Part shown: positions 145-21,445 of the stretch, piece by piece | Position numbering within the stretch: position 1 is the first letter of the stretch | Layout of the letters: every line of letters begins with the position of its first letter | The notes under the pieces: generated by a model | The model's input: the letters and a program-made list of their open reading frames with translations, nothing else | What the model was told of the DNA's origin: nothing | Database searches by the model: none | From: an uncultured Lachnospiraceae bacterium | Lineage (GTDB): Bacteria > Bacillota > Clostridia > Lachnospirales > Lachnospiraceae | DNA length: 64,000 nt | Direction of reading: 5' to 3' | Assembly: GCA_947589095.1 (NCBI GenBank) | Contig: CANQBX010000002.1 | Coordinates: forward strand, 1 to 64,000 | Made by a program: the position numbers and the translations under genes

Positions 145-639
145 CTACAGAAGAAGAATATCCTCCCTGATCAGTCCCGCCTTCGTCATCGCCTCCCAGG
201 ACAGCTCCGGAACGACCCGCACGTCCTCCGTAACCTCCGTCCTGCGGCCCTGATCCTCCCAGTAAACGCAGATCAGCATTTCTTTGCTGACAAAGTAGGC
301 CCAGCGGTAATACCGATTTTCATACAGGAAATCCGAACTGTCAAAGCAGGGGAACCTTTCCTTTACAAGCAGAACCTTTCTGCCGTACATATCCCGGAAA
401 AGTCCGTTTTCCCGATCCACCGGCACCGCCGTCAGGGCCTTCGCCGCCGGATACGGAAGTCCCGCGGTGACAAATCCGGGCTGCGCCGAAAAGGTGTGCT
501 TTTGGGGCTCGGGCACCCGGCAGACAGCCGGCTGTCCTTCGGCATCCTTTTCCAGACTGATCCAGTCGATCAGCCGGTCCGTCTCGACAAACTTCGTGTT
601 CGGTTTTTTCGTTATTCTGGCAACAAGCGTCTCTGACAT
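145..639 (-). CDS. Unknown protein, last gene of the RNA-repair run
   Basis: A 164-residue protein I do not recognise. I chose the ATG at 639 because GGGAGGAACG stands just upstream; a longer frame to 681 would overlap the preceding gene. There is no signal peptide or membrane segment. The C-terminal half is aromatic-rich (YENRYYRWAYF, VYWED), as in compact alpha/beta proteins. It lies 26 bases behind the HD/kinase gene and is probably co-transcribed as the last gene of the run. Coding is supported by the good ribosome-binding site and tight spacing; function is open. Confidence 0.72.
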   Translation of the reverse strand: MSETLVARITKKPNTKFVETDRLIDWISLEKDAEGQPAVCRVPEPQKHTFSAQPGFVTAGLPYPAAKALTAVPVDRENGLFRDMYGRKVLLVKERFPCFDSSDFLYENRYYRWAYFVSKEMLICVYWEDQGRRTEVTEDVRVVPELSWEAMTKAGLIREDILLL

Positions 640-665
640 ATCCGTTCCTCCCGCTATTCCTGACC

Positions 666-1850
666 CTACACACAAACCCACTCCACCGTCTGCGCCTCGT
701 CCGGCATGGGCGGAACCGTCCGCTCCAGCATCCGTCCGACCACAGCTTCCGGAACCGGTTCCGGCCGGCCCGCGTTTCGGCGGATACGCTCGTTCAAACC
801 CGTTTCCAGATAAATGATCCGCACCCGCGCGCCGTACCGTTCAAAAAGATTTACCAGCTTCTGCCTGGTATCCTTTACGGTATCGGTGGCGTTCCAGACA
901 AACGGCTGTTTTTTCCGGAGATACGCCTTAGCCGCTTCCTGTGCCGCCCAAACGACTTCGCCCTGATTGTCCGCCGGTCCGATCCCCCTCGTCTTTCTGA
1001 GCGCATCCATGGAAACAACGGGCAGCCCCGGCAGGTTCTCCCGGATCCAGGTATCCTTGCCGGTACCCGGAAGGCCGGACAGCATAACCACCTCGCCCCA
1101 GGACGCGTCAAAGAGTTTCTGATCCGGATCCACATTCCGGCCGGACAGATAGGCGCGTTTTGTAAACGCGTCGCCGAAACGGTACGGCTGGTCCAAACAG
1201 CCGGCCTCTTCCGCAAGAATTTCCGCCAGCTGCACCCGCTCCAGAAGATCCGCGGTATCGCCGGCGATCCGGCCCTTCGCGTCCGCTTCCGCAAGCATAA
1301 GCAGAAGATCCGGCGCAAATCCGGCCGCAAGCTCGCCGATACAGGCGATTTCCCGGACGCGGCGTTTCGCATCCTCTTTCTCTGCCAGATGCACAGGCAG
1401 CATATGGTATCTGACCAGCGCGCAGACCGCCTCCCGAAACGCCATAGCACCGGGGGTTCCGCAAAGCGCGCAATCCCGCCACAGAAACGTCCTTACAATC
1501 CGGCTGCCGGCCGCAGAATGATTCGGAGAAGTCCAGACGCCGCCTTCGCTGCGGGTCGTCTTCGTCTTCCCGATATCATGAAGAAGCGCAGCCAGAAAAA
1601 GCGCCGTTCTCCGGCCGGCAGAAAGCCCGAAAAACCCCGGATTCAAAAGCAGTTCGCGGCAGACCAGCTGCGTATGCCTGTATACGTCGCCCTCGCCGTG
1701 GAAAACCGGATTCTGCGGCGTCTCTTTCATCGCCGTAAAGCCGGCCGGGGCGAGCAGCCGCCCGATTCTGTCCCAGTCAACTTCATCCGAAGGTCCGTTC
1801 GGAATACATGCCTGAAATTCCCGGATAAAATCCGGCGCCGTTTCCTTCAT
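666..1850 (-). CDS. HD phosphohydrolase-P-loop polynucleotide kinase fusion
   Basis: A 394-residue two-domain protein. The N-terminal half is an HD domain: His59, the HD pair at 91-92 in LLHDIGK, His111 and Asp190 are plausible metal ligands. The C-terminal part (from about 255) is a P-loop kinase with GLPGTGKDT at 259-267, like the kinase domains of T4 Pnkp and tRNA-ligase-associated kinases. By family knowledge such proteins heal RNA ends: the HD domain could remove a 2',3'-cyclic or 3' phosphate and the kinase could phosphorylate the 5'-OH. The RNA ligase gene immediately upstream supports this. Substrate and activities are inferred. A 256-bp repeat-filled gap separates the two genes. Confidence 0.82.
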   Translation of the reverse strand: MKETAPDFIREFQACIPNGPSDEVDWDRIGRLLAPAGFTAMKETPQNPVFHGEGDVYRHTQLVCRELLLNPGFFGLSAGRRTALFLAALLHDIGKTKTTRSEGGVWTSPNHSAAGSRIVRTFLWRDCALCGTPGAMAFREAVCALVRYHMLPVHLAEKEDAKRRVREIACIGELAAGFAPDLLLMLAEADAKGRIAGDTADLLERVQLAEILAEEAGCLDQPYRFGDAFTKRAYLSGRNVDPDQKLFDASWGEVVMLSGLPGTGKDTWIRENLPGLPVVSMDALRKTRGIGPADNQGEVVWAAQEAAKAYLRKKQPFVWNATDTVKDTRQKLVNLFERYGARVRIIYLETGLNERIRRNAGRPEPVPEAVVGRMLERTVPPMPDEAQTVEWVCV

Positions 1851-1896
1851 CTGCCTGCCTCCCGTCTGTTCTCCGCCGATCCCCCGCGGTTCATAC

Positions 1897-2112
1897 CGAC
1901 AGCCGTTCTGCGGAATCTCCCGCGTCTCGTGCGATCAGCTCTTCCGCGGAATCTCGCGCCTCGTGCGATCAGCTCTTCCGCGGTATCTCCCGCACCTCGT
2001 GCGATCAGCCGTTCTGCGGAATCTCCCGCGCCTCGTGCGATCAGCTGCTGCTTTGCGGAATCTCCTGCACCTCACGCGATCAGCCGCTTTGCGGAATCTC
2101 CGCCTCTCATGC
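1897..2112. repeat. 34-36 bp tandem repeat starting at the RNA ligase stop codon
   Basis: About six imperfect copies of a 34-36 bp unit (core GCGGAATCTCC...CGTGCGATCAGC on the plus strand) fill most of the gap between the HD/kinase gene and the RNA ligase gene. The first unit, read on the minus strand, includes the last codons and TGA stop of the ligase (GTTCGCATGAGAGG matches GATCGCGTGAGGTG in the next copy). The repeat therefore seems to have grown from the gene's own 3' end. No spacers occur between copies. Confidence 0.85.
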
Positions 2113-2901
2113 GAACAACCTCTCCACGGAACCGTCGAGCTGATTGGGTATAATCGGCTTATCGAGCCAGTGGATCTCCGAGAAATCCACGCACTGCAGA
2201 AAAGCGGCCCGCACATATTTCATCCGGTCAGCCACCTGCCCGTCTTCTTCAACCTTGATATAAAGCCCCTCCATCATCCCGGAAAGCTCCGTCTCCGCGC
2301 AGGCTCTCTCCGGATCCAGTCCCAGCCTTACGGCCGCCCCATACAGGCTCTGTCTCTGGTTTCCGGTCACGTACCGGGACTGCCCCAGAAGCTTAAGCAG
2401 CTGTTCTCTGCTTTCATACCGGCCTTCGCCCAGCACCGGAACGGACATGACCGGAAAGCCCGCAAGCATCCGCTGTCTGGTCGGCGTGTCCAGAAAAATC
2501 CCCGTCTCACGGTCCAGAATATCAAATTCCAAAAAATAATGCGGCAGCGCGTCATAGAACACCGTGTGCTTCGCGTAGAGCCATTCGCCGTACATGATAT
2601 ACCGTGTCCCGAGAAGCTCATAAAAAGCGTCACGGTGAACCGTGGCCCACTGCTTCATCAGGCTGTAATGACGCTCCCGCTCCCCGCCCGTCAGATAATG
2701 CCCCCGGCTCTGCAGCAGAAGCCCGCTGTCTGCATCAAAGGAAATGGCGGAATTCGCGCCGTCGCATTTCTCCTCGACAACCAGATGTCTCCCGCGGACC
2801 GCCTCAAACGGAATCTGACGCAGATCCTCGTCACCGGGCTGAAGGCGGGAGCCTTCAATATGCGGCGTCCGGGGATATTTGCGTATCGCAAACGGATTCA
2901 T
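2107..2901 (-). CDS. RNA ligase family protein
   Basis: A 264-residue nucleotidyltransferase of the ATP-dependent RNA ligase family. Motif I is EKCDGAN, with Lys45 the expected AMP-accepting lysine. YGEWLYAKH and FLEFDIL match motifs III and IIIa, MEGLYIK matches motif IV and MKYVR motif V. It should seal 5'-phosphate to 3'-OH RNA ends. The ATG at 2901 is preferred over the GTG two codons upstream because AGAGGTG is then correctly spaced. The HD/kinase downstream could prepare ends and the methyltransferase upstream could modify them, forming an RNA-repair trio. The motifs make the catalytic class secure; the RNA substrate is unknown. Confidence 0.9.
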   Translation of the reverse strand: MNPFAIRKYPRTPHIEGSRLQPGDEDLRQIPFEAVRGRHLVVEEKCDGANSAISFDADSGLLLQSRGHYLTGGERERHYSLMKQWATVHRDAFYELLGTRYIMYGEWLYAKHTVFYDALPHYFLEFDILDRETGIFLDTPTRQRMLAGFPVMSVPVLGEGRYESREQLLKLLGQSRYVTGNQRQSLYGAAVRLGLDPERACAETELSGMMEGLYIKVEEDGQVADRMKYVRAAFLQCVDFSEIHWLDKPIIPNQLDGSVERLFA

Positions 2902-2947
2902 TTTCACTCACCTCTTACGTTCATTCACGGCAGCCGCAGACCGCGGC

Positions 2948-3649
2948 TTAACCCGCAGCCGCCACCAGAAACAGATGCCCCTCCACGCCGTCAAAATGCA
3001 GCCGCGTCCATCCCGCGTCATAAAACATCCGCGTCAGCTTCTCCTTCGTCAGCAGATGGATATGCTCCGGGTTATCGTCCGGCTTCGACGGAACAGTGAC
3101 GACAACATACCGTTTCGCCATACGTACGGCCGCCTTCACCGCCCTCCCCGCGTCCGGGATATGTTCCAGCACCTCCAGCATCGTGACCACGTCGAAGCTG
3201 CCGTCCGCAAACGGCTGCTCACAGATGTCCTTCTGCAGCGCGCGAAGCTGTCCGAACCCGCCGTCCGCCAGCTCATTCAGGAACGTCACCCGCTTTTCAA
3301 GGAGGTCGAGGGACGTCACGCGCACCCACGGAAACTCCTTCATGAACGGAATCAGGAAGACGCCGCGCCCGCTGCCCACGTCCAGCATCGTCTCGAAGGG
3401 AACGGACCGCAGAAAGCCCATGGTCCTGCGTGTGCGCGCCAGAACCTGTACGCCCGCCTTAAACGGATACAGTTTCAGACCCGCCGCCTGCCCCGCGGCA
3501 AAAATCCGGTCGACCTCCTCCCCCGAACATTCACCGGCCGTTTTGTCCCTGACGGCAGCCGGAAGCTCCGGCACGCCGGTACCGCGCGCATGGCCCAGAA
3601 TCCAGGCCGCCGCGGTCATTTTATCATATCGCTCGTCCAGACTGCTCAC
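2948..3649 (-). CDS. Class I SAM-dependent methyltransferase
   Basis: A 233-residue Rossmann methyltransferase. Motif I is MLDVGSGRG (about 88-96), the acidic loop is TSLDLLEKR, and VVTMLEVLEHIP is the post-I/IV region. It starts at a GTG (3649) behind AGGAACGC. The EVLEH plus a later EHIHLL superficially resemble the metal-binding pattern of the Hen1 RNA 2'-O-methyltransferases that partner bacterial Pnkp, but the same residues are common in UbiE-like enzymes, so I do not call it Hen1. Its position next to an RNA ligase and kinase makes RNA a reasonable substrate guess. Confidence 0.82.
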   Translation of the reverse strand: MSSLDERYDKMTAAAWILGHARGTGVPELPAAVRDKTAGECSGEEVDRIFAAGQAAGLKLYPFKAGVQVLARTRRTMGFLRSVPFETMLDVGSGRGVFLIPFMKEFPWVRVTSLDLLEKRVTFLNELADGGFGQLRALQKDICEQPFADGSFDVVTMLEVLEHIPDAGRAVKAAVRMAKRYVVVTVPSKPDDNPEHIHLLTKEKLTRMFYDAGWTRLHFDGVEGHLFLVAAAG

Positions 3650-3724
3650 GCTGCGTTCCTGCCCCTTCTCTTCCCTTTTCTTTACTTCATAACCAAATCA
3701 GCCCAAAGCATGGATTTCTTCTCA

Positions 3725-5245
3725 TCAGCGGCCGGCCGGACCATTTCTCACGAACCGCAGGCCGTTTTCCGCGGCATAGCGTTCCGCCGCGGTTCCCGCC
3801 TTCCCATACAGAACCGTGTTCCCGGAAAATGCGCCGTACGCGATCTCCTGCACTTGTTCCGGGATCTCAATCCTCTTTAAGCTCCCGCTGTCCAGCGCGC
3901 AGCTTCCGATCACCCGAAGCGACGCCGACAGGCGTACGGATTGCAGTCTGCTGCAGTTTGCAAAAATCTTGCCGGGAAGCCCGGTGATCCCTTCCTCAAG
4001 CACGGCCTCCTCAAGCTCCTGACAGAACCAGAACGCCGCCTCGCCCAGCTTCGCATTCCCGGGGATGCGGATCGTACGCAGCTCAGAGCCCGCAAATGCT
4101 TTCCTGCCCAGCGCGACCCCGTCCGGCAATGGGATCTCCCGCAGCCCGCTATAAGAAAACGCCTCGTCCCCGATCCGCTTCAGACCCTCAGGAAGCCGGA
4201 TCCGCTTTAACGCACTCCCAAACTGGAACATACGGGCGGGAATCTCCTCAAGCATCTCGGGCAGATGGATCTCCTCGAGCCGGCGGCAGTCCATGCAAAG
4301 CCCGCTTCCCAGCACGGTCAGATGATCCGGCAGAATCAGTTTCCGCAGACTTTTGCAGCCGCTGAACGCGTAACCGGCGATGCTTCCGACCTGCGCCGGA
4401 ACAAGAATCTCCTCAAGCGTATCATTGCCGGAAAATGCGTTCGCGCCGATCGCGGACACCTGCTCCGGAATCGTATAGGCCGTCCCGTCTTCCCTGTAGG
4501 AAACCAGCACGCCGTTTCGGATTGTGACGCCTTTATGCCCGGCAAGAAGCCATTTGCAGCGTTCGGAATCGCTCCCCGCTCTTGTGCTCCTCCAGTATTC
4601 TTCCCGCTGACGCCGGTAGTTCTCCCCGGCTGTCCGGATTTCGCGCAGGAAACGCTCCTCATTGTTCCGATAGTCCAGATTCGAGTATCCCTTCAGGCAG
4701 CCGAGGCAGTTGAAGAATTCGTCAAACGCGTAAAAATCATAGAGCTCTTCCATCCCGAAGCCGTCCGTATCCGGCCCCTCATAACCATGATAGGTCTCCG
4801 CATAAAAGATGCCGTCCGCGTCCAGCGAACGGATCGAATACTCCTGTTCCGCCTTCATACTCAACAAGCCGGCCTTCCTTAGCTCGCTTCCCCGGATACT
4901 GACGCGGAAATCCTGTCCGGGGATGAAAAATTTCTCCGGAAGCAGCGAAAGCCTCCCCCATCCGGGATGCGCCGCCGCAATCTCCTCCGCCGGGGCGCTT
5001 CCATAGGCCTCCGCGCGCAGATACCACAGGATCCCCGCGCGCGCGTTAAACGCATCCTCCCCGTGATTTTCGAGATAATCCGCCAGTTCGTCCTCTTTCT
5101 GCCCGGGATTTTCTTCCCACTCCGCCTCCAGACGCAGATAGGCCGCAGGAAGCGCTCCCCGGAACGATTCCCCGAGCCGTAACATGGCCTTTATATCCCC
5201 CATGCCGGCACGCTCTGCCAGACTCCTAAACTGCCATTGCCACAC
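3725..5245 (-). CDS. Cytoplasmic BspA-type leucine-rich-repeat protein
   Basis: A 506-residue protein starting at GTG 5245 behind GAGGGGG. Residues 1-110 are helical and Sel1-like in character (RAGMGDIKAMLRLGES). From about residue 235 it consists of LRR_5/BspA-type repeats (pattern I...AF.GC..L..I.LP..L..IG..AF), ending in TAAERYAAENGLRFV, which is the usual tail of this family. Secreted BspA proteins have signal peptides; this one has none, so it should act inside the cell, probably as a protein-binding scaffold. It sits between the VWA gene and the RNA-repair genes. Confidence 0.85.
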   Translation of the reverse strand: MWQWQFRSLAERAGMGDIKAMLRLGESFRGALPAAYLRLEAEWEENPGQKEDELADYLENHGEDAFNARAGILWYLRAEAYGSAPAEEIAAAHPGWGRLSLLPEKFFIPGQDFRVSIRGSELRKAGLLSMKAEQEYSIRSLDADGIFYAETYHGYEGPDTDGFGMEELYDFYAFDEFFNCLGCLKGYSNLDYRNNEERFLREIRTAGENYRRQREEYWRSTRAGSDSERCKWLLAGHKGVTIRNGVLVSYREDGTAYTIPEQVSAIGANAFSGNDTLEEILVPAQVGSIAGYAFSGCKSLRKLILPDHLTVLGSGLCMDCRRLEEIHLPEMLEEIPARMFQFGSALKRIRLPEGLKRIGDEAFSYSGLREIPLPDGVALGRKAFAGSELRTIRIPGNAKLGEAAFWFCQELEEAVLEEGITGLPGKIFANCSRLQSVRLSASLRVIGSCALDSGSLKRIEIPEQVQEIAYGAFSGNTVLYGKAGTAAERYAAENGLRFVRNGPAGR

Positions 5246-5303: not shown

Positions 5304-5948
5304 CTATTTTCTCTCGTTGTAATCTTTGTCAATCTTTCCGCGCCAGCTGCTGCCCACGTTTCCGTGGCCTCTCACGGCGGACGCAGCCTGGCCAAGCGCG
5401 TCAAAATTCGTCGCCGTGCCCACAGCGTCCGGCCGGTAATTCACGGCCCTGTCCGCGCTGATGCCGAGACCTCCGGCGACTTTCACCGCGTCCATATTGG
5501 CGCCCAGGAAAATGAATTCCCAGCCGTGCTTTTCCTGCTGCGCCGTGATCATCTGGCGGACCGTGCCGAGACTGAACTCATGGCTGGCGTTCTCCAGCCC
5601 GTCCGTGATGATGACCACCATGGTGTTCGCCGGCGTTTCCGCCTCCGGCATAAAGTTCTGGCGGTGTTCCACCTCTGTAACGGTCTTTCCCACCGCGTCC
5701 AGAAGCGCCGTCATTCCCCTTGCATAATACTCCCTTTTCGTGATCGGCGCAACCTTTTTCAGATCCACGTGATCATGCAGGATCTCATACTTGTCGTCGA
5801 ACAGCACCGTTGTGACGATCGCCTCGCCCGGCTCGGCCTTCTGCCGCTCCAGGAAGCTGTTGTAACCGCCGATGGTGTCGCTCTCCAGAGACTGCATCGA
5901 ACCGCTGCGGTCGAGAATAAACACAAGTTCCGTTAAATCCTTTTTCAT
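5304..5948 (-). CDS. VWA-domain protein with intact MIDAS site
   Basis: A 214-residue protein that is almost entirely a von Willebrand A domain. The metal-ion-dependent adhesion site is complete: DRSGS at 13-17, Thr80 in ARGMTALLDA, and Asp116 in IITDGLEN. The start at 5948 follows GGAGGA with normal spacing; the ATG five codons upstream lies on that same site and is rejected. Intracellular VWA proteins often act with AAA+ ATPases as adaptor or assembly factors, and an AAA+ gene lies 2.2 kb upstream in the same run. No membrane segment is seen. Confidence 0.9.
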   Translation of the reverse strand: MKKDLTELVFILDRSGSMQSLESDTIGGYNSFLERQKAEPGEAIVTTVLFDDKYEILHDHVDLKKVAPITKREYYARGMTALLDAVGKTVTEVEHRQNFMPEAETPANTMVVIITDGLENASHEFSLGTVRQMITAQQEKHGWEFIFLGANMDAVKVAGGLGISADRAVNYRPDAVGTATNFDALGQAASAVRGHGNVGSSWRGKIDKDYNERK

Positions 5949-5971
5949 TTCAAATTCCTCCATTCTCTGAA

Positions 5972-6760
5972 TTACGGCTGAGCCGCTCTCACCCGTCTCA
6001 CCGCGTCCATAAAACGCCGCACGCGCGCAGGATCCACGGGAGCGGACGTCACGCCGCCCGCCTTGAACCAGCTTCCCACGATGGCTCCGTCCGCGGCGGA
6101 AAGCTGCTCCGCGCAGGTCTCCTCCGTCATCCCTGCGCCGACAAACAGCGGGAAATCCCCCAGCGCGCTGCGGAACTGCCGGATCTTCTCCATGTCCGTC
6201 TCGATCCCGGTGCCCGCGCCGGTCACGACAATAGCGTCGCAGCGTCCCTTTCCGATCGCCAGATCCTCCTCGACGCTGCGCCCGGAATTGACCGGCTGGT
6301 ACTTAAACCGAACGCCGCCCAGCAGGAATACGGGGAACTGCGCCCGAAGCCCTGCCAGCCAGTCCGCGAAGTCGCCGTCATACATTCCATAATAATGGCC
6401 CGATCCCCCGCCGGCCTCCGCCCTTCTTCCCGGCCGCAAATGGCCGCACACGGAATCGATCTGCAGAAATGCCGCGCCGTACCGCGCAGCCAGCTCAAAG
6501 CCCAGCCGGGGATTGCCGAGGACATTGACACCGTACGCCTTTTGGGGATACTCTTTCTGAAGGTACCGGAGCATACGCTCCACATCGTCTGTATTTCCGA
6601 AATAATTCTCGACCAGAACGGCGTCCACGCCGTTCTCATACATCTGGGCGATCTCCCGTCTGGCCCGCTCGTCCACCGCCTCCGGCGATTCTCCGTTCAG
6701 ATGGAGCATGCCGAGAATCGGTTTGTTCGTATGAAATGTGTCAAATACTGCCCGGTTCAT
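5972..6760 (-). CDS. BtpA/SgcQ-family TIM-barrel protein
   Basis: A 262-residue TIM barrel. The sequence follows the BtpA/SgcQ pattern: KPILGMLHL near the N-terminus, GVDAVLVENYFG, GVNVLGNP, and IVVTGAGTG followed by FVGAGMT and GAIVGSWFK, which look like phosphate-binding loops. BtpA is known from photosystem I accumulation in cyanobacteria and SgcQ from an uncharacterised sugar cluster; the biochemical activity of the family is unclear. The start at 6760 follows AAAGGAGG. The frame overlaps the end of the small gene upstream by 20 bases, implying translational coupling. Its role in this cluster is unknown. Confidence 0.87.
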   Translation of the reverse strand: MNRAVFDTFHTNKPILGMLHLNGESPEAVDERARREIAQMYENGVDAVLVENYFGNTDDVERMLRYLQKEYPQKAYGVNVLGNPRLGFELAARYGAAFLQIDSVCGHLRPGRRAEAGGGSGHYYGMYDGDFADWLAGLRAQFPVFLLGGVRFKYQPVNSGRSVEEDLAIGKGRCDAIVVTGAGTGIETDMEKIRQFRSALGDFPLFVGAGMTEETCAEQLSAADGAIVGSWFKAGGVTSAPVDPARVRRFMDAVRRVRAAQP

Positions 6761-6980
6761 CTGCCGCAGCCTCCTTTCGCTTCCCTTCCGGAATCGGTTT
6801 GGGATCGTTCTGAAAGTCCCCGAACATCCCGCGGCCGGCACGGTCCCGCAGCGCTTTCCGGACGTTGATACTGTGCTCTATGGCAGCCAGCGTCGTCTCC
6901 TTCCGGGTGCTGACGGTCATTTTTCTTCCGCCGCCTCTCTCCCTGAAAAAATCCCTGGCCGTGTTCTCTTTTCTGTCCAT
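6741..6980 (-). CDS. Small basic protein overlapping btpA-like gene
   Basis: A 79-residue, charged, probably soluble protein of unknown family, first gene of the downstream half of the run. The ATG at 6980 follows GGGAGG at good spacing; an in-frame GTG two codons earlier is less well placed. Its last 20 bases overlap the next start, as in coupled operon genes. It has no recognised domain; TRKETTLAAIEHSINVRKALRDRAG could form one amphipathic helix. It is short and unrecognised, so I hold it with moderate confidence. Confidence 0.55.
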   Translation of the reverse strand: MDRKENTARDFFRERGGGRKMTVSTRKETTLAAIEHSINVRKALRDRAGRGMFGDFQNDPKPIPEGKRKEAAADEPGSI

Positions 6981-7106: not shown

Positions 7107-7514
7107 TCAGCTGTCGCCGAGGGATTCGTCCGCCTCCGGCTCGGAAGACCCGGGCGCAGACTGGGTCTGAACCGCCGGCATGAGCTTTTCCAGCTCCCTG
7201 ACCGCCTTCTCTCCGATATTGGCGTCGGTCTCCGTCTTCAGCAGAAAATACTTCGCCGTCTCCGGCTCGGTCTTGAGCCAGTCCATGATGATAAATGCGT
7301 TGACCGGCTTAAATCCCCGCTCCTCGATCAGGTAACGCGCCGTGATGCCCTCGATCTCATCCTTCGGAAGGCGTCGGGCCACAATCCACCAGACCAGCCA
7401 GGAACGGCTCTGGCCGTCCATGGCCTTAAACGCCCGGAAAATCCTTGTGATCTCCCGCTCCGCGTATCCGTCGCTCTGCATATATTCCTTATATTCACTG
7501 AATGTCACTTTCAC
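7107..7514 (-). CDS. Unknown small protein coupled to the HExxH gene
   Basis: A 135-residue protein of unrecognised family. It begins at a GTG (7514) that overlaps the TGA of the upstream zincin gene by four bases (GTGA), with GAGGAGG inside the upstream gene's last codons serving as ribosome-binding site, so the two are translationally coupled. It is mostly helical (EREITRIFRAFKAMDG, SRSWLVWWIVARRLP), with a disordered acidic tail after about residue 115. The Trp-rich segment is too charged around it to be a confident membrane helix. It is the last gene before the internal promoter at about 7.05 kb. Confidence 0.72.
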   Translation of the reverse strand: MKVTFSEYKEYMQSDGYAEREITRIFRAFKAMDGQSRSWLVWWIVARRLPKDEIEGITARYLIEERGFKPVNAFIIMDWLKTEPETAKYFLLKTETDANIGEKAVRELEKLMPAVQTQSAPGSSEPEADESLGDS

Positions 7515-8164: not shown

Positions 8165-8169
8165 CGTTT

Positions 8170-13388: not shown

Positions 13389-14693
13389 CTATGTGAACCG
13401 GATGCCCTTACCGCCGCCTTCCGTATTTTCCAGGGTAAATCCGCCGCCGAATGCCGCGCGGCACCTGCCCCCGCTGAAAAGAACCGCGGCGCTCCTGCCG
13501 CTTAAAGATAAAGCGCACTCGCCCGCGTCCTTCTCTCCCAGTACCTTAAGGCCGAAGCCCTGCCCCCTGCCGCTTAAGGACAACACGCCCGTTCTCGGCG
13601 GCACGTCTCCGCCGGCGGCCGTCGTTCCATCCTCTAAAAGCACCTCAAAACCGCCCTCGGTCACCCGGACCTCCACGGCCGGTTTCGTGATGCTCTCAAG
13701 CACAAACCGGTTGAAAGAATCCTCCGCGTCCCGGAAAAAGGCGAAATTCAGCCGTCCGTTCTGTATAAACAGCATCCCTCTTCCGCCGCTTCCGGCGGAC
13801 ATGGAAGTGACGCCGTCCTCCCTCAGCTCCCATTCCTCGCCGTTTTGGGGCTTTATGCGTATCGTCTGCCCCGAATAACCGGCCCGAAAGGCGCACAGGT
13901 CGTCGCTGACGCACAGGGACGGAAGGAAGCAGATGATCCTGTCTCCCACGGCGCTGCAGTACCGGTATTCGCCCGGCGCAAGCTTCTGCGTCAGCACCGG
14001 CGAAGAGGCGCCGTCAGGCCACAGTTCCACCGTGGCAAATTTCCCGCTGCGGCCTGCCTTGGCGGCAATCCGCACCGTCCGTATACGCTCCCCCGGCTTG
14101 AGGGCACCGCCGCCGCGGCAGAGAAACCGATACGGAATTTTAGACACGGCAAGAGGGGCTTCGTCCACATAGCCGAAGCCCTCCGGCCGGCTCGGGATGT
14201 CATTTTCCTGCCACTCCCCGGACCGGACCGTCCTGGCGTCCACCTCGGAAAGCTCGCTTATGGCCAGCATAAGCACGGCTCTCACCGCATCCTGTACGCC
14301 TCCCCGGATGATCGCCTCCAGCTTCTCATACAGAAATCCGTGGGCCGCCTCCCCGGCGATGTCCTGCACCGCGGCGCCGGCTTCTTCCCCGGCAGACTCC
14401 CGCTGCGGCACAAGCTCCTTTAACAGCGCATCGAGAAGCCGGGCCGGCGCCGTTTGGCCGGGCCACTGGCTTCTCCCAAGCAGGCTGTACCAGAATTCCT
14501 TCGTCACATACCGGGCTATATACAGCTCCTTCGTATCGGAATCGGTATAGCAGATTCCCAGCGGCACACAGTGTACCGCCGCGAACCGCCGGAAATCTGC
14601 AAGCTGGCCATAAAGCTCTGCCGGTGAAAAATTTTCCCGCAGATCCATAAAATTCAGGATCCGCTCTCCGTTTATCCTAAGAAGCGTTCTCAT
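13389..14693 (-). CDS. Unknown protein with beta-rich C-terminal half
   Basis: A 434-residue protein I do not recognise. Residues 1-170 are mixed alpha/beta and helical (ELYGQLADFRRFAAVHC, DAVRAVLMLAISELSEV). The remainder is Gly-rich and beta-strand-rich with short alternating strands (FATVELWPDG, GFEVLLEDGT, SGRSAAVLF), reminiscent of jelly-roll or FHA-like sandwiches but without a firm match. There is no signal peptide. GGAGATTCC precedes the ATG at 14693, and the gene lies 17 bases behind the membrane-protein gene, so it belongs to the same operon. Confidence 0.78.
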   Translation of the reverse strand: MRTLLRINGERILNFMDLRENFSPAELYGQLADFRRFAAVHCVPLGICYTDSDTKELYIARYVTKEFWYSLLGRSQWPGQTAPARLLDALLKELVPQRESAGEEAGAAVQDIAGEAAHGFLYEKLEAIIRGGVQDAVRAVLMLAISELSEVDARTVRSGEWQENDIPSRPEGFGYVDEAPLAVSKIPYRFLCRGGGALKPGERIRTVRIAAKAGRSGKFATVELWPDGASSPVLTQKLAPGEYRYCSAVGDRIICFLPSLCVSDDLCAFRAGYSGQTIRIKPQNGEEWELREDGVTSMSAGSGGRGMLFIQNGRLNFAFFRDAEDSFNRFVLESITKPAVEVRVTEGGFEVLLEDGTTAAGGDVPPRTGVLSLSGRGQGFGLKVLGEKDAGECALSLSGRSAAVLFSGGRCRAAFGGGFTLENTEGGGKGIRFT

Positions 14694-14710: not shown

Positions 14711-15850
14711 TCATTCCTGGGCCGGGGCCGCGACGATCTCCTCCTCATCCTCCACCGTCTCCGTCTTCTGGCCGGTATGGACAAATGAGCGGAGCTTCTC
14801 CAGCATATCCGCCGCGAGCGCGGTAACCTTCGGGATTATGTTCCGGTCTGCATATTCGGCGGCCGTCCTGGCGCCCTGCATCACGGTCCTTACGGCGGCT
14901 ACCGAGAATTTCACAATGGCCTCGGCAAGCTTCGCCCATTCATCGGCGGCGACCAGAAATGCCTTCGCCGTCAGGACTCCCACCATGAACGCGGCGGGAA
15001 TGGCCAGAATAACGGAAAATACGGAGACCGCGCTGATCGCCGCAAAGGCAGCCGTAATGCAGAGATTCGCCAGCAAAACGACGCCCAGCACGGTCAGGGC
15101 CGCAACGGCCAGATCAACGGCCATGGAACCGTTCCCGACGGCCTCAAGGATCCGCGCCTGCTCGATCTGAGCGCAGACAACAGCGGCCACCTGAGCGGCG
15201 CCCATGTTCACAGGCATATCTTCATACACGCCGCTGATAATATCGGTATAGGCCAGCATGGAGAGGATGGCCCTGTACTCCACATCATGGCTTCCGATGT
15301 CAATGAGGAGCCCCGCGGCCTCCTCGGCGGTATCCATACCGGCAAGCGCCTCCGCCTGCTCCGCCAGAGAGCCCAGCAGCACGCCCGAATTCATCAGGGC
15401 TTCCTTCGCCTGGGCGCGCAGCTTCTCCTCCAGCTCCGGCGTCGCCTCGCCCTCCGGGACAGACAGTGCGCCAAGCTCCGCGATAACCGCCTCCCGGTCC
15501 ACCGCTTCGCCGCCTGCCGCGCTGGCCGCGGCCGCAATACCGGCGCTGAGCTTCAGCCAGTATTCGCATCTCTCCGCACAGCTTCTGTCTCCGTCAATCC
15601 GCTTCATCAGCTTGTCCACATACCGGTCCACATCCGTCCTGGCCTCGGCATAATCGGCGTCAAACCCGCGGACGCTTTTCAGGATCGTATCCGCGATGAG
15701 AAGTCCCTGCTTCTCGGTCTTGTCGTCAAGATTCTCCACATAGATCCGCGCCAGCACGGTACGGACGTCTTCTCCGCCCTCAAGCGCGGCGATGTAGGCT
15801 GTCTCCCTGTTCTTCAGTCCTTCAAGCTGCTCGTTCGTAAGATTCTTCAT
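14711..15850 (-). CDS. Membrane protein of unknown family
   Basis: A 379-residue, mostly helical protein. Two long hydrophobic segments lie at about 245-300 (DLAVAALTVLGVVLLANLCI, then AISAVSVFSVILAIPAAFMV), after a soluble N-terminal domain rich in Glu and Ala and before an acidic tail. It is probably an integral membrane component that could hold the Hsp70/AAA machinery at the membrane. It is the first gene after the shared 25-bp regulatory element, with AAGGAGG a few bases before the ATG at 15850. Confidence 0.8.
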   Translation of the reverse strand: MKNLTNEQLEGLKNRETAYIAALEGGEDVRTVLARIYVENLDDKTEKQGLLIADTILKSVRGFDADYAEARTDVDRYVDKLMKRIDGDRSCAERCEYWLKLSAGIAAAASAAGGEAVDREAVIAELGALSVPEGEATPELEEKLRAQAKEALMNSGVLLGSLAEQAEALAGMDTAEEAAGLLIDIGSHDVEYRAILSMLAYTDIISGVYEDMPVNMGAAQVAAVVCAQIEQARILEAVGNGSMAVDLAVAALTVLGVVLLANLCITAAFAAISAVSVFSVILAIPAAFMVGVLTAKAFLVAADEWAKLAEAIVKFSVAAVRTVMQGARTAAEYADRNIIPKVTALAADMLEKLRSFVHTGQKTETVEDEEEIVAAPAQE

Positions 15851-16004: not shown

Positions 16005-16583
16005 CTATATCCTGCTGTCCTTTTTCCGGGCGGAAGAACCGGGAATCTCGTAGATGCTCACAAAGGATCTTTTGCCGTTTAAGCTGTAATAATCAAGAAT
16101 TTCCACCGCGTCGTCCACAGTGATATCAAACCCTGCCTTCCGCACGTCGATCATGGCCAGCACAACCTGGTCCTGGGGATCGCTCTGGTCAAAACCGCTC
16201 CGCCCTTTCCGAAGAAGCCGGACAGCCTCGTCCTCATCCAGCTTTAAGGCGATAATCAGCTTCAGAATCGTCTTCTTGCTGGTGGCCACAAGCCCCCATT
16301 TCATCTCGCTCCAGGTGGATTTGTCAATATAGGCGTAACTGTAGAATCTCGCCTCCCGGACCGTCCCGTTCTTCCGCAAAAACCGCGGATCGCCAAGACG
16401 CAGGATATACGCGGTCACATCGTCATAGAGCGCCGAATTTTTCCCTTCCGTTTTCACGTCGGAATACTCTTTTATCTTCTCATCGATGCCCGCAAGCAGC
16501 GACCGGGAAACCTTGTCCGCCGCCGCTGCTCCCCGCCTGGCGATGGACTCATCAAGCAGAATTTTTATCCGAAGATCTTTCAA
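16005..16583 (-). CDS. Probable HTH protein, TTG start
   Basis: A 192-residue protein starting at TTG 16583, well placed behind GGGGGAG. The middle and C-terminal part (about 85-175) has the pattern TWSEMKWGLVATSKKTILKLIIALKLDEDEAVRLL, then a Phe and DQVVLAMIDV, which matches a helix-turn-helix-like module found at the C-terminus of many Firmicutes signalling and conflict proteins. Its residues TSKKTILKL would be the recognition-helix region. I infer nucleic-acid binding or a protein-interaction adaptor. The gene is transcribed toward the Hsp70/AAA+ block, divergent from the XRE regulator at 16826. Confidence 0.75.
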   Translation of the reverse strand: MKDLRIKILLDESIARRGAAAADKVSRSLLAGIDEKIKEYSDVKTEGKNSALYDDVTAYILRLGDPRFLRKNGTVREARFYSYAYIDKSTWSEMKWGLVATSKKTILKLIIALKLDEDEAVRLLRKGRSGFDQSDPQDQVVLAMIDVRKAGFDITVDDAVEILDYYSLNGKRSFVSIYEIPGSSARKKDSRI

Positions 16584-16825: not shown

Positions 16826-17272
16826 ATGAACGAACAGAAGAAACGCCTGACCACCACGCAGCTTTTGTCGCTTATCCGGCGGTCCAAACATTTTACGGTC
16901 GTGGAGAATGCCCTGGGAAATATGGAACAGCCCCCGGATTTCTGCCAGTATCTGTATGAGCTCATGGAGCATCACCAGGTCAACGCGAAGGAAGTGATCC
17001 GGCGAAGCGGCATCGAGCGTTCCTATTTCTACCATATCCTGAGCGGTCAGAAGACGCCCTCCAGGAATATGCTTCTGCGGATCAGCCTCTGTATCGACGC
17101 CAGCCTTTCAGAGACCAACCAGCTGCTGCGGCTGGCCGCCCTCGGTTCCCTCTACGCTAAGGTGCGGCGGGACGCGGGAATCATTTTCTGCATTGAGAAC
17201 GGATATACGATGCGGCAGACCAATGAATTCTTAAAGGAACTGAACGAAGCGCCGCTTTACCAGGATGAATAA
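16826..17272 (+). CDS. XRE-like HTH regulator
   Basis: A 148-residue protein. Residues about 38-100 form a lambda-repressor-like HTH (FCQYLYELMEHHQVNAKEVIRRSGIERSYFYHILSGQKTPSRNMLLRI in outline), with SYFYHILSGQKTPSR as the recognition helix and turn. It is followed by the family's typical tail SETNQLLRLAALGSLYAKVRRDAGIIF. I chose ATG 16826, directly behind AAGGAGG, over the longer open frame to 16700. It is 59 bases before the receptor-kinase gene and probably in its operon. It is the best candidate for control of the divergent cluster. Confidence 0.87.
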   Translation: MNEQKKRLTTTQLLSLIRRSKHFTVVENALGNMEQPPDFCQYLYELMEHHQVNAKEVIRRSGIERSYFYHILSGQKTPSRNMLLRISLCIDASLSETNQLLRLAALGSLYAKVRRDAGIIFCIENGYTMRQTNEFLKELNEAPLYQDE

Positions 17273-17331
17273 GGCGCGCCGGGACGCGGCGGATGCGATC
17301 TGCCGGTACGGCAACAGGAGATTGAGATTGT

Positions 17332-19374
17332 ATGTCAGATATACCGAGATTTGAAGAACCATCCTATGAAACGGAGCTGCCGGAATATCTGAAAGAACAG
17401 TACCGCATCTGCTCCTGCCTCCGGCGGGAGGACGGCTACGGAACCTATCTGGTGACCGAGACAGACAGCGGACGGCAGATGATCTTTAAGACTGCCTCCG
17501 ACCCCGTTTCCATGCGGATCCTTGCAAATGAACAGGCGATCCTTCAGGATATCCACAATTCGCCGCGCAGGGAGCTGGCGGATACCTTTCCCGTGATCTG
17601 CCGCTTCCGGACCGGGGAAGAACGCGCGTGGTACCTGCGCAGCTATATTCCGGGCAGCACGCTGGAAGAATTATGCGAATCCTGCAAAGAAAAACCGGGA
17701 CTGCCCATACGGCAGGTCTTCCACTATATGATCCAGCTGACCGAACTTCTGTCGTTTCTCCATTCCATGAAGCCCAGCATTATCCACCGGGACATCAAAC
17801 CGCAGAACGTGGTCGTAGACGCGAAAGGCGTTTGCCATTTCATCGACCTGGGCATTTCCAGACATTTTGACAACAGCAAGGACAGCGACACCCTGGTCAT
17901 GGGCACACAGCTCACGGCGCCCCCGGAACAGTTCGGCTTTAAGAGGACCGACGCGCGGAGCGACGTTTATTCCCTGGGCATCCTCCTGCTCTACTGTCTG
18001 ACCGGCGAGTACCAGGCGACAGAGCAATGTCTCGGCGAGACCGGCGCCCTGCTGCGCCCGATCATCGAAAAAGCCACCCGCTTCGACCCGGATAAGCGCT
18101 ACCAGTCCGTACAGGAATTCCAGAAGGATCTTCTGGAGGCGCAGTATTCCTTTCTGCGGCAGGAGCAGAACCGCGCCGGGAACGGCTCCGTTCCTTTCTG
18201 GAAGCGGCGGATCCCCGCCTGGCTCGCTGCGCTTCCTGCCGCGGCCGTGCTGGTACTTTCCGTCCTGATCCTGTATTCCCCGCAAAACGGCGGCCTTCGG
18301 CTGCCCGGTTCCGGACAGGCAGGCGCCCTTTCCGGCGACCCGCTGACGGCAGATACTGCGGAGACGGATCCGGACCAGATCTACCATTTTACGGAACCGC
18401 TGATCGAGGAGGCGGTCCGAAGGCAGCTGCAGGTCTGGGACAGGGACCTGACGCTGGGCGAACTGGCCAAGATCACGTCGATCCATATTATGGGGCTGGA
18501 GATCTATGTGGACGACAGCTATCTGTGGCTTAGGGGGGACACTCCCATGTTCTACGACGAATGGACGCAGGAAAGCGGAAAATTCCTGCAGAGCGGCCCC
18601 ATTTCCTCGCTGGAAGACATCGTGCATATGCCTTCCCTGCACACCCTGTGCCTTTACAATCAGAATATCGACGATATCTCCCTGCTTAAGGACACGCGGA
18701 TCTCCTACCTGGGCCTCGGCTACAATCCGCTTACGGATCTTTCACCGCTGGAGAACAATCCCAGCATCCGGACGCTGATGATTCCGGACCTGCCGATCAC
18801 AAATCTGGCTTCCGTCGCCACGCTGCCGAATCTGAACGAGCTGAATCTCAGCGGCTGCGGGGGTATCACTTCCATCGAGGAGCTGGCGGGCGGTCCCATC
18901 GTCGTCCTGGACCTGTCCCTGATCGAGCTTACGGATTACAGCCAGCTTCGCGCCCTGCCCAACCTCTACTCCCTGTTCCTGAAGCGGATGGACAGCAATA
19001 TTTTAAGCGAACTAAACGGCCTGCCGCTGACCTCCCTCACCTTCTACTATTCCCACAACCTGAAGCTGGAAGACATTCAGGGGCTGGAGAATCTGGAATA
19101 CCTGGGTATCTGGGGGGACGGAGAATCGCTGTTTGAAATGGGAGAAAATAATAACCTGCCGCGCGTGTGGCATATCGCGCTGGCAGGCATGAAGATTGAT
19201 GATTTCTCAAATCTTGACGCCATTCCCAACCTGACCCGGCTGGAGATACACGGGGCCGACGTCATAAACTATCAGGGACTCGACCGGCTCCCGAGGCTGA
19301 ACAACATCGTCTGCTCGCCTGAGCAGCGGGAGGAGATCGACCGGGTCTATCCGGATAATGAATTTCTCTTTTGA
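17332..19374 (+). CDS. Transmembrane Ser/Thr kinase with leucine-rich-repeat ectodomain
   Basis: A 680-residue receptor-like kinase. Residues 20-280 are a Hanks-type kinase: Lys53 in MIFKTA, HRDIKPQN at 152-159, and DLG (172-174) in place of DFG. A single membrane span lies near 298-318 (WLAALPAAAVLVLSVLILYS). The rest, outside the cell, is an array of internalin-like LRRs (LCLYNQNIDDISLL, LGLGYNPLTDLSPL and so on). PASTA domains, usual in Firmicutes PknB, are absent. It should sense an external ligand and phosphorylate cytoplasmic targets; the cluster's AAA+/VWA/LRR proteins are the obvious candidates, by inference only. Confidence 0.92.
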   Translation: MSDIPRFEEPSYETELPEYLKEQYRICSCLRREDGYGTYLVTETDSGRQMIFKTASDPVSMRILANEQAILQDIHNSPRRELADTFPVICRFRTGEERAWYLRSYIPGSTLEELCESCKEKPGLPIRQVFHYMIQLTELLSFLHSMKPSIIHRDIKPQNVVVDAKGVCHFIDLGISRHFDNSKDSDTLVMGTQLTAPPEQFGFKRTDARSDVYSLGILLLYCLTGEYQATEQCLGETGALLRPIIEKATRFDPDKRYQSVQEFQKDLLEAQYSFLRQEQNRAGNGSVPFWKRRIPAWLAALPAAAVLVLSVLILYSPQNGGLRLPGSGQAGALSGDPLTADTAETDPDQIYHFTEPLIEEAVRRQLQVWDRDLTLGELAKITSIHIMGLEIYVDDSYLWLRGDTPMFYDEWTQESGKFLQSGPISSLEDIVHMPSLHTLCLYNQNIDDISLLKDTRISYLGLGYNPLTDLSPLENNPSIRTLMIPDLPITNLASVATLPNLNELNLSGCGGITSIEELAGGPIVVLDLSLIELTDYSQLRALPNLYSLFLKRMDSNILSELNGLPLTSLTFYYSHNLKLEDIQGLENLEYLGIWGDGESLFEMGENNNLPRVWHIALAGMKIDDFSNLDAIPNLTRLEIHGADVINYQGLDRLPRLNNIVCSPEQREEIDRVYPDNEFLF

Positions 19375-19443
19375 GAAGGCTGCCCGCTGAACCCGGGCTG
19401 TCCTGCGGCATCGGGCACAGGTTCCGAAACTCCGCTTCTATGC

Positions 19444-20190
19444 TCAGCCCGGCCGCCCGCTCATCTCACAGCTCAGGCTGTGGGGGATCTTCCGCTGGCT
19501 GCGGACCGCGTAGACGCCGAAGCCTTTCAGAAAATCGCGGGTGAAGCGGTCCGGCGCGTAGCGTTCCAGAAGCTCGATCTTCATGGCCTTTTTGATCGTC
19601 AGGTTCTCGTCCTCATAGGAATACGGAATATTTGCTTCGACGACCCTGCATTTATAGAGAACCGCACAGACCGGGGCGGCCATGTACATGTAAATCGTAT
19701 CTCCCACCCTGATATCGGCGGTCTGCTTCCACTCCATCACGGGGTTCTCCCGAAAGCCTGCTTCCACATCGTAATACTTCGGATTCGCCGGGATGATCCA
19801 GTCCACCGGGCCGCGCAGACGCTCCTTTTTCTTCTTCGAGGCCGTAAGCGCGTAGCTTAAGTCGATCAGATCCATGACCCGGTCCTTTGGAACGGTTCCG
19901 TCCAGAAGGACGGAGATCCATTCCGTGTGATTCATATGGTAGGCCGGGAAAATGCCGGGCTCCGCCCGCAGTATGTCTCCCATGGCCGGATCGCATTTCA
20001 GATTCAGGATATCCGCCGGTTCCGGCTCCGCAAGCCCCAGCCTGCGGCGGCTCACATACATGAGAAGGCCGTACCATTTGCGGCTGTCCGCGTGACGCAG
20101 GACCGCGCTGTCCGGATCGCCGCACCACGGATAATCCGGTTCGGTTCCGTATTGTTCCTTTACGTATGTCAATACTTCCTCGCGCGTCAT
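19444..20190 (-). CDS. MmcQ/YjbR-EVE-like fusion protein
   Basis: A 248-residue protein. Residues 1-120 match the MmcQ/YjbR (CyaY-like) fold: YPWCGDPDSAVLRH, MYVSRRRLGL, LNLKCDP, FPAYHMNHTEWISVLLDG. Residues 130-210 resemble a PUA/EVE-type module (DWIIPANPKYYD, VGDTIYMYMAAPVCAVLYKC). EVE domains bind modified bases in some proteins; here binding is inferred. It is the last gene of the SPFH operon, 12 bases behind the RHH gene, and converges on the kinase gene across a 69-bp gap. Confidence 0.85.
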   Translation of the reverse strand: MTREEVLTYVKEQYGTEPDYPWCGDPDSAVLRHADSRKWYGLLMYVSRRRLGLAEPEPADILNLKCDPAMGDILRAEPGIFPAYHMNHTEWISVLLDGTVPKDRVMDLIDLSYALTASKKKKERLRGPVDWIIPANPKYYDVEAGFRENPVMEWKQTADIRVGDTIYMYMAAPVCAVLYKCRVVEANIPYSYEDENLTIKKAMKIELLERYAPDRFTRDFLKGFGVYAVRSQRKIPHSLSCEMSGRPG

Positions 20191-20202
20191 GAGCGTACTC
20201 CT

Positions 20203-20406
20203 CTATTCAATATCCAGCTCCGGCGGCTCATCCAGATGCTCGGATACGTATTTTCCGTTCTTCTTCCGCTGCCGCACGCATTCGGTCAGCAAATATTCGA
20301 TCTGGCCGTTGACCGACCGGAAATCGTCCTCCGCCCAGGCAGCGATGGCGTCGTAGAGCTTGGCCGACAGGCGCAGCGGGATCTGCTTCTTCTGGTTATC
20401 CGCCAT
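20203..20406 (-). CDS. Ribbon-helix-helix DNA-binding protein
   Basis: A 67-residue protein with the Arc/MetJ-like ribbon-helix-helix pattern: the strand KKQIPLRL followed by [31 protein letters not shown]. It starts one base after the SPFH stop codon. Small RHH proteins of this type commonly accompany SPFH proteins in Clostridia. The SPFH promoter contains repeated TGATATT/AATATCA half-sites, a plausible autoregulatory target. The C-terminal tail ([11 protein letters not shown]) is acidic. Confidence 0.85.
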
Positions 20407-20407
20407 A

Positions 20408-21445
20408 TCAGTAGAGGCTGCCCGAATTCACGATGGGCTGGGCGTCCCGGTTGCCGCAGAGAACCACCAGCAGATTGGAGACCATAGCCGCCTTGCGCTC
20501 CTCATCCAGTTCCACCACCTGCTTCTTGCTTAACTGCTCCAAAGCCATCTCCACCATACCCACAGCGCCGTCCACGATCATTTTCCGGGCGTCGATGATG
20601 GCCGAGGCCTGCTGCCGCTGCAGCATCACCGCCGCGATCTCCGGCGCATAAGCCAGATAGGTGATCCGAGCCTCGATGATCTCGATGCCGGCCTCTTTCA
20701 CCTTCTCCTGAATCTCGTCCCGGATGCGGGCCGCCACGATCTCGCTGGAGCCGCGCAGGCTCCCCTCGTCGGCCACGCCGTCGCCGGTGGTATCCACGCC
20801 GGGCGCCACGTCGTAGGGATAGATGCGGACGATATTGCGCAGGGCGCTGTCGCACTGCAGGGACAGATACTCTTTGTAGTTATCTACCACGAACACGGCC
20901 TTCGCCGTATCCACCACCCGCCACATGACCGCGATGCCGATCTCGATGGGATTGCCAAGGCAGTCGTTGATCTTCTGACGGTTGTTGTTCAGCGTCATGA
21001 TCTTAAGGGAAATCTTCTTGCTCGGCGTCTCCGAGGAGCCCGCGCCGGACGAACTGCCTGCCACGATCACGGGCATGGATTTCCCCCCGTCGCCGTCCAC
21101 ATCGCCACTCTGCCGAAGTCTTGTCTTCGCCGCGGGATTCACCGCGGAGCAGAAGGGATTGACGAAATAGAATCCCGGCTCCTTAAGCGTTCCCACATAG
21201 TTGCCGAACAGCGTCAGCACCACCGCCTCCTGCGGCTTAATGACCGTCAGGCCGCAGAAAGGAATCCATCCTATTACCGCCCAGAAAATGCCCACACTAA
21301 GCAGAACCGCTCCCAGTGTCTTCGAGCCGTGATCCAGCTGCAATCCGCCAATCACGATCGTCACGACCGCCGCGATGTAAAGCAGGCCGAAAAGCAGAAG
21401 CATCTGCATGCCGTTCCGATTGCCGTTTAATACTTTCTCCTTCAT
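20408..21445 (-). CDS. SPFH/band-7 membrane protein
   Basis: A 345-residue SPFH (stomatin/prohibitin/flotillin) protein. Two N-terminal membrane helices (about 14-34 and 43-62) are followed by the band-7 domain from [21 protein letters not shown] through [18 protein letters not shown] and [27 protein letters not shown], ending in a helical tail. An inserted Gly/Ser-rich loop lies near residue 125-150. Such proteins form membrane microdomain cages that organise proteases and signalling proteins. ATG 21445 follows GGAGGTAAAATC. A membrane scaffold beside a receptor kinase and a membrane-attached Hsp70/AAA set suggests a shared envelope location. Confidence 0.92.

Follow-up and report, generated by a model that had tools for sequence, protein, structure and literature searches.

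A composite locus with a kinase/XRE regulator pair, exchangeable NTPase cassettes and RNA-repair genes in an uncultured Lachnospiraceae bacterium

Related systems and the locus

The GTPase-centric and MoxR-vWA conflict systems of Kaur et al. 2020 combine switch nucleoside triphosphatases (NTPases), vWA proteins, Hsp70 (together with GrpE in certain systems of firmicutes), modular effectors, membrane parts and, in some systems, kinases, as far as the available part of that paper describes them (PMC7159879). Type III-A CoCoNuT 5′ extensions, in the portion of the source at hand, display VWA genes beside exchangeable ATPase cassettes, including SpoVK/p97-like AAA+ ATPases, and Hsp70-like parts are found elsewhere in CoCoNuT operons (PMC11090510). 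Similar parts are present in a locus of an uncultured Lachnospiraceae bacterium (assembly GCA_947589095.1, here G000). The window, i.e. the whole stretch of DNA analysed, consists of bases 1-64000 of contig CANQBX010000002.1 (C2). Genes g01-g19 of the locus span positions 145-21,484 (Table 1), and only g16 and g17 are on the plus strand. The locus is made of three separable blocks and is not one fixed system. This division follows from homology breakpoints and silent-site divergence, which define the block borders. M1 (16,627-21,475) contains an XRE-like regulator, a kinase with leucine-rich repeats (LRR-kinase), a YjbR protein and an SPFH protein; M2, or cassette A (5,293-16,626), contains Hsp70-like, AAA+, HExxH, VWA and BtpA proteins and hypotheticals; M3 (665-5,292) contains a BspA-LRR protein, a methyltransferase, an RNA ligase and HD-Pnk. 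In related genomes, cassette A is replaced by unrelated cassettes, B and C.

The systems of PMC7159879 differ in having a MoxR-type AAA+ with VMAP/iSTAND, or DO-GTPases with GAP1, and RNA ligase does not occur in the available text of that paper. The MoxR-type AAA+ of a MoxR-vWA ternary system was not found: g10 is best matched by the general AAA model PF00004 (3.8e-25) and by no MoxR-type model, such as AAA_3, at E 0.1; the VWA gene is present but weak. VMAP, iSTAND and GAP1 did not turn up in general family scans of the locus proteins, in which no dedicated model was searched. Unlike CoCoNuT as described in the portion at hand, the locus shows no recognised McrB/McrC or coiled-coil nuclease, and its constant frame is an XRE-kinase switch with RNA repair. 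The BrxR/CapW regulators are alike in that one regulator family is paired with changing defence cargo (PMC9122601, PMC9122588, both in part). However, these are WYL-domain proteins, whereas here the regulators are XRE-like and a receptor kinase, and one orthologous switch has its cargo exchanged at a shared sequence junction. In the parts of these sources available, the locus comes closest to two published kinds, modular NTPase conflict systems (PMC7159879) and ATPase cassettes bordered by VWA genes (PMC11090510). The gene combination itself was not found as a described system in the literature searched, which does not include Burroughs and Aravind 2016 on RNA damage and repair in conflicts.

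The repair genes also have described counterparts, among them Runella HD-Pnk. In Deinococcus DRB0098-DRB0100, an HD and then a kinase domain are found in one protein with a ligase gene close by, and DRB0100 is an ATP-dependent DNA-ligase-like protein (PMC1997131, in the part available). In g02, an HD phosphoesterase and a P-loop kinase are likewise found in one protein with intact motifs, and an RNA ligase with a KxDG motif (g03) is adjacent, by which healing and sealing are predicted; here, in contrast, the ligase belongs to the RNA_ligase family and is part of a large island. The Pnkp1-Rnl-Hen1 system, according to the available text of PMC4411300, resembles M3 in that RNA ligase, end healing and methyltransferase genes stand together. 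Membership was rejected, as g04 scores 19.6 bits (2.6e-4) against Hen1 TIGR04074 with a cut-off of 340, and g02 scores 18.3 bits against Pnkp with a cut-off of 750.

In IetAS, the subtilisin-type IetS stands beside IetA. IetA is the nearest PADLOC model to g10 (60.5 bits, over the AAA domain only; NCBIfam IteA gives 51.9 bits vs a cut-off of 510), but the neighbour g09 is an HExxH protein and not a subtilisin-type IetS, and membership was rejected. The best PADLOC models are LeoA/LeoBC for cassettes B and C, where matches are partial (best 39.7 bits) and none covers a full-length Leo model, and kinase models for g17. The likeness to IetAS, LeoA/LeoBC and DynA, as seen in the available parts of the sources, consists of an AAA+ plus peptidase in cassette A and of dynamin-like GTPases in B and C (PMC4159319, PMC8844932). 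However, the NTPase domain alone matches; the peptidases here have an HExxH motif or M48 domain, and the partner genes differ. For Bacillus subtilis DynA, the same text describes a delay of lysis after phage infection (PMC8844932).

Three blocks and the element at the cassette junction

Genomes were sampled from the family (150), genus (26), order (392) and phylum (398), with thresholds that differ between samples. Seven of the 26 genus genomes carry the kinase: three with cassette A (G000, G533, G527), two with B (G526, G535, decayed in the latter) and two with C (G531, G523). The homology of G526 to the window is limited to 665-5,292 and 16,627-21,310, and that of G531 to 16,627-19,375. Between the breakpoints, cassette A is 11.3 kb in its three carriers. 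The sequence-only reading had taken the locus as one system of about 18 genes with two halves (6.98 kb downwards and 15.85 kb downwards). The single system is contradicted by the breakpoints, by differing divergence and by the separate occurrence of parts. Blocks do exist, but by homology the boundaries are at 5,292 and 16,627; besides the former, silent-site divergence gives a second, weaker change near 7 kb.

Cassette B lies between the same flanks in G526 and consists of a 176 amino acid (aa) gene, a 332-aa Peptidase_M48 protein (5.4e-6), a 563-aa gene, two Dynamin_N proteins (724 and 858 aa), genes of 170 and 267 aa and another Hsp70, which differs from g11 (29%); membrane proteins are among its products. 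Cassette C is found after the LRR-kinase/XRE pair in G523, with an M48 peptidase (2.2e-21), a 582-aa LeoBC-like protein and a Dynamin_N protein; G531 is 91% identical to G523 over 3.5 kb, and cassette C stands behind the same regulators in both. The dynamin GTPase domain is confirmed in the two B proteins and in C (Dynamin_N 1.4e-13, 2.5e-12, 3.8e-22). A, B and C are three unrelated sets at one port in one genus, and in each type a large NTPase is accompanied by a metallopeptidase motif or domain. That g12-g15 are homologous to cassette B, or to cassette A2 of G105, was rejected as not significant in profile comparison (best probability 4.3% for g14 and 1.7% for g15).

M3 adjoins both cassette A and cassette B. 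The G526 locus is split over two contigs that share exactly 77 bp at their ends, within a 329-aa gene; this overlap may be the assembler's k-mer. This gene precedes the BspA-LRR gene in G533, G527, G526 and G535; the window is without it. On the right, infC is found beyond M3 in G533, G527 and G526. It has no match in G000, where the contig starts about 145 bases past g01 and the right flank is therefore out of view. On the left, the window's flank is also present in G533; in G527, engB and lon (names assigned by eye) are directly beside SPFH and homology to the window stops at 21,439. Two extra genes are situated between HD-Pnk and infC in G526 (L090 5538-7111), one of which matches SocA_Panacea (4.4e-20) and, weakly, the MqsA antitoxin.

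Silent-site divergence (dS) between G000 and G533 is 0.029-0.077 for g08-g15 and 0.088-0.162 for g02-g07 (exact Mann-Whitney p 6.7e-4). It is 0.137 for XRE, 0.181 for the kinase, 0.311 for SPFH and 0.419 for YjbR, and reaches 0.80-1.57 in nine genes further left. The island (14 genes) differs from this flank (9 genes) with an exact Mann-Whitney p of 2.4e-6; neighbouring genes are non-independent, so both p values are a guide only. The low dS of the island vs the flank points to recent exchange between species. By breakpoint g06 (VWA) and g07 (BtpA) go with cassette A, but by dS they are like M3, and thus cassette A is itself composite.

Between XRE and cassette A there is a 24-bp element on the minus strand, AAGTCTTCTGTCAGAACACCAAAA. 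It is found at the head of all three cassette types in the seven kinase carriers, identical in 7/7 except for the central base. Within the window it is unique at ≤3 mismatches, and none is expected there by chance. At the XRE silent divergence of about 0.4-0.6, the chance of 23 unchanged bases is roughly 1e-4 to 1e-5 per pair. A TATAAT-like box is situated about 40-45 bases before the element on the cassette strand, again in 7/7. The element is a candidate XRE operator or promoter element, and a DNA or RNA signal is preferred over a coding leader. The frame KSLL[STPA]EHQ[NK] can be read in 7/7, but in G000 a stop closes it immediately upstream, there is no shared start codon, and the sole variable base alters the amino acid while silent sites are invariant. 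In G142, of another genus, a copy with 3 mismatches lies ahead of a gene for a 1,859-aa protein; in G955 none was seen at ≤4 mismatches.

The decayed locus of G535 is on contigs C108 and C2, which overlap by 77 bp. XRE is fragmented, the kinase is without residues ~58-341 but keeps the LRR part, cassette B is reduced to pieces of five genes, the methyltransferase is in pieces and there is no ligase or HD-Pnk. SPFH and YjbR remain intact where the rest decays, and for this reason g19 and g18 are probably bystanders. This is a single genome, and large deletions could cause such decay of the blocks together in the absence of functional linkage.

Interpretation and rival explanations

The regulator pair, XRE g16 and LRR-kinase g17, is divergent from an exchangeable cassette. 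This may be a composite, recombining and mobile chromosomal locus, in which a kinase/XRE switch would drive membrane NTPase-protease cassettes that can replace one another, accompanied by RNA repair and possibly directed against phages; we give this reading about an even chance. It is based on the breakpoints at 5,292 and 16,627, cassettes B and C at the same flanks or regulators, the invariant element, the low dS, the co-decay in G535 and the PADLOC models. The kinase-transmembrane-LRR order of g17 fits a receptor of the predicted topology, which would sense an envelope or phage signal. The XRE protein, putatively bound at the 24-bp element, would then release the cassette promoter. Cassette A would assemble at the membrane. 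Targets may there be remodelled or unfolded by the AAA+ and Hsp70-like ATPases and would probably be cleaved by the HExxH protein, a predicted active peptidase, with the VWA protein as a possible adaptor. HD-Pnk would heal and the ligase seal RNAs cut during the episode, a putative recovery role by which the repair enzymes might limit self-damage or undo a foreign ribonuclease. Judged from sequence, the locus would most likely serve to defend the cell against phages or other mobile elements. A membrane NTPase-peptidase cassette that can be switched and exchanged, with RNA repair as its companion, is most in keeping with a conflict system. More tentatively, and with somewhat less than an even chance, the junction could be a docking port: one XRE/receptor-kinase switch and a conserved 24-bp promoter/operator element, at which unrelated NTPase-protease cassettes (AAA+/Hsp70, dynamin/Hsp70, dynamin) would be exchanged by recombination beside a constant RNA-repair block.

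Several results weigh against this reading of a switch-driven mobile locus. The sequence-only reading had also proposed a stress or conflict response, which gains from the IetA match of g10 and the LeoA/LeoBC-like dynamins of B and C, but all matches to defence models are at the superfamily level. M3 was not seen beside cassette C at either of the two loci examined for G531, and both cassette C loci stop at contig ends, with the content beyond out of view. In G535, the 329-aa gene and BspA-LRR (76%) are open although the rest decays. Outside the genus, HD-Pnk is found directly after RNA ligase in 6/6 genomes (G033, G046, G194, G199, G216, G345); the earlier claim that RNA ligase is coupled with an end-healing enzyme thus holds, and no other island gene is found within the 16-35 kb examined. 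XRE-kinase pairs are present in G142 and G955 with no AAA+, Hsp70 or dynamin cassette within 20 kb, as judged by similarity to window genes and by eye. The viral contigs searched gave no copy of the element and no relative of the Hsp70 profile or of the AAA+ protein; a phage or plasmid origin was rejected, with one distant Hsp70-like match in plasmids (26% identity) and nine phage records with RNA ligase at ~25-31% identity. No integrase was identified. The sequence-only reading would have been refuted by finding its halves mostly in unrelated genomes and never together; M1, M2 and M3 are joined in four genomes, all from a single genus (A in three of them, B in one), and have seemingly decayed together in G535. 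However, the carriers of A and M3 are linked by recent transfer, and therefore the co-occurrence represents at most two independent unions.

An unlikely explanation, though one of real weight, is that a hotspot beside infC gathers unrelated genes, so that M1, M2 and M3 would share a place and not a function. The unequal silent-site divergence of g08-g15 and g02-g07, the solitary repair pairs, the regulators lacking NTPase cassettes in G142 and G955 and the unrelated genes that precede infC in other genus members all agree with it. Against it stand the invariant element at the head of three cassette types, the precise coincidence of this element with the site of exchange in G526 and G531, the co-decay in G535 and the similar kinds of parts in all three cassettes. 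It is improbable that the locus is an island for envelope stress or protein quality control, in which AAA+, Hsp70-like, HExxH and SPFH proteins would keep membrane proteins in order and have no special phage link. Hydrophobic segments in g09, g11, g14, g17 and g19 suit this, as do SPFH relatives that modulate proteases (HflK is weakly matched) and the Hsp70-like gene with a ~300-aa partner in all seven matches of family f8, apparently an undescribed small two-gene unit. But the patchy presence (5/26 in the genus, 1/398 in the phylum), cassette replacement and recent transfer suit a conflict system better than housekeeping, and SPFH is not kept beside the kinase in G531. Very improbable is a role in surface or social signalling, with the kinase/XRE pair controlling surface-associated functions and the cassettes building or extruding something. 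The gene behind the 3-mismatch element in G142, divergent from XRE, encodes a Big_2-domain protein, and a 1,273-aa BspA-LRR protein adjoins the kinase in G955; on the other side, none of the genes in cassettes A-C was recognised as one for secretion or the surface.

The Hsp70-like protein is found in 3/150 family genomes (the window's own, G053 and G105), 5/26 genus genomes, 9/392 order genomes by profile search (its own, seven of family f8 and one other) and only its own of 398 phylum genomes. AAA+ is found in 8/150 family genomes, and RNA ligase in 3/150 family and 5/392 order genomes. The Hsp70 is 98-99% identical at loci L030 and L031 in two rabbit-gut Lachnospiraceae metagenome-assembled genomes. 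In G105, homologues of the Hsp70 (24%) and the AAA+ (29%) share an operon with unnamed genes, and RNA repair genes were not found there within 20 kb.

If the docking-port reading is right, the swapping of cassettes behind one promoter under receptor control would let the cell renew its effectors and retain its sensor, and the constant RNA-repair block would give the cell a way back after an attack. Sister species that combine one sensor kinase, regulator and promoter element with three different effector cassettes offer a natural experiment. Should the element be an XRE operator, signal, switch and effector could be taken apart and exchanged at the bench, and it would become testable why RNA-repair enzymes stand beside conflict systems. 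The locus also shows that a neighbourhood unit proposed from a single genome may be assembled from modules that differ in history. Its modular architecture is unusual and has good support; regulators with changing defence cargo are already known from the available part of PMC9122601.

Gene inventory and minor features

The sequence-only reading had placed a set of named domains along the locus, and the 18-19 genes at 0.15-21.45 kb are indeed open reading frames (ORFs) with these domains, by Pfam matches and motifs (Table 1). Pfam matches of the locus proteins were listed to E 0.1, and the weaker calls are below Pfam's own cut-offs.

Table 1. Features of the locus in the window (TM, transmembrane segment; MIDAS, metal ion-dependent adhesion site; dN/dS, ratio of replacement to silent divergence)
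Feature	Position	Strand	Evidence
24-bp element AAGTCTTCTGNCAGAACACCAAAA holding palindrome TTCTGNCAGAA	16653..16676	-	see text
cassette junction	16627	.	G526 (cassette B) and G531 (cassette C) lose homology to the window here
g01 hypothetical, 178 aa	145..681	-	overlaps g02
g02 HD-Pnk (M3), HD phosphoesterase and polynucleotide-kinase-like P-loop domain	666..1850	-	HD 1.3e-6, AAA_33 1.7e-20; HDIG and GLPGTGKD motifs
g03 ATP-grasp RNA ligase (M3)	2107..2907	-	RNA_ligase 1.7e-33; KCDG motif
g04 S-adenosylmethionine (SAM) methyltransferase (M3)	2948..3649	-	Methyltransf_11 1.6e-14
g05 BspA-type LRR protein (M3)	3725..5245	-	LRR_5 1.1e-42
g06 VWA protein (cassette A by breakpoints)	5304..5963	-	VWA_2 1.8e-4, below Pfam cut-off; MIDAS residues present
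g07 BtpA/SgcQ-family protein	5972..6841	-	BtpA 8.7e-26; probable start inside ORF at 'MNRAVF'
g08 hypothetical, 135 aa (cassette A)	7107..7514	-	dN/dS 0.11-0.17
g09 HExxH protein (cassette A)	7511..8164	-	HELRH at residue 150; N-terminal hydrophobic segment 1-27; DUF3920 2.2e-4, below Pfam cut-off
g10 AAA+ ATPase with a single active AAA domain (cassette A)	8170..10122	-	AAA 3.8e-25; IetA model 4.5e-17
g11 Hsp70-like ATPase (cassette A)	10169..12301	-	MreB_Mbl 3.7e-4, sole and sub-threshold Pfam match; C-terminal hydrophobic region 604-635
g12 hypothetical, 333 aa (cassette A)	12349..13350	-	dN/dS 0.38-0.46
g13 hypothetical, 434 aa (cassette A)	13389..14693	-	dN/dS 0.24-0.26
g14 hypothetical membrane protein (cassette A)	14711..15850	-	hydrophobic 240-302
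g15 hypothetical, first gene of cassette A	16005..16583	-	dN/dS 0.45 at low dS
g16 XRE-like regulator (M1)	16826..17272	+	HTH_31 2.3e-4, below Pfam cut-off; start ATG at 16826, preceded by AAGGAGG, in a longer ORF that is open from 16700
g17 Ser/Thr kinase-TM-LRR (M1)	17332..19374	+	Pkinase 5.7e-21, LRR_4 1.8e-13; HRD and DLG motifs; TM 293-318
g18 YjbR-domain protein	19444..20190	-	YjbR 3.5e-23
g19 SPFH/Band 7 protein	20408..21445	-	Band_7 2.8e-22; left edge of block common to G527

There is no Pfam match at E 0.1 for g01, g08 and g13-g15, and g12 has a sub-threshold match only. For the 18 genes g02-g19, dN/dS vs relatives is 0.035-0.46, and therefore they evolve like coding genes; no match to g01 was seen in the relatives G533, G527 and G526. 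All three motifs of the Hsp70 superfamily (phosphate-1, phosphate-2, adenosine) are present in g11, and its homologue in G105 matches HSP70 at 1.2e-9. Hydropathy of g05 shows neither a TM nor a signal segment, and g07 is missing from G527. The start of g19 at 21,445 stands as first written, since the G142 homologue has the same kind of start.

The top dN/dS values of the locus (0.38-0.46, at low dS) are those of g12 and g15, which are possibly fast-evolving parts. A small ORF at 6741-6986 overlaps the BtpA start and gives no coding signal (dN ~ dS). The spacer between the RNA ligase and HD-Pnk genes holds a minisatellite at 1900-2101 (unit ~36 bp, 5.6 copies), and in G533 and G527 this spacer is only ~17 bp. 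The related ~300-aa gene is situated just upstream of the Hsp70-like gene in eight loci (L040, L042, L044, L046, L048-L050, L023), which comprise all seven f8 Hsp70 genes and that of G053; one is truncated at a contig end. Contig C34 of G105 (L026) carries two further Ycf46-like AAA+ genes ~4 kb apart. G142 (L131 8135-17900) has SPFH (79% identical), a kinase lacking LRR, XRE, the 3-mismatch element and the Big_2-domain gene. A short tandem repeat (12-23 bp) is found at 71-127, at the contig end.

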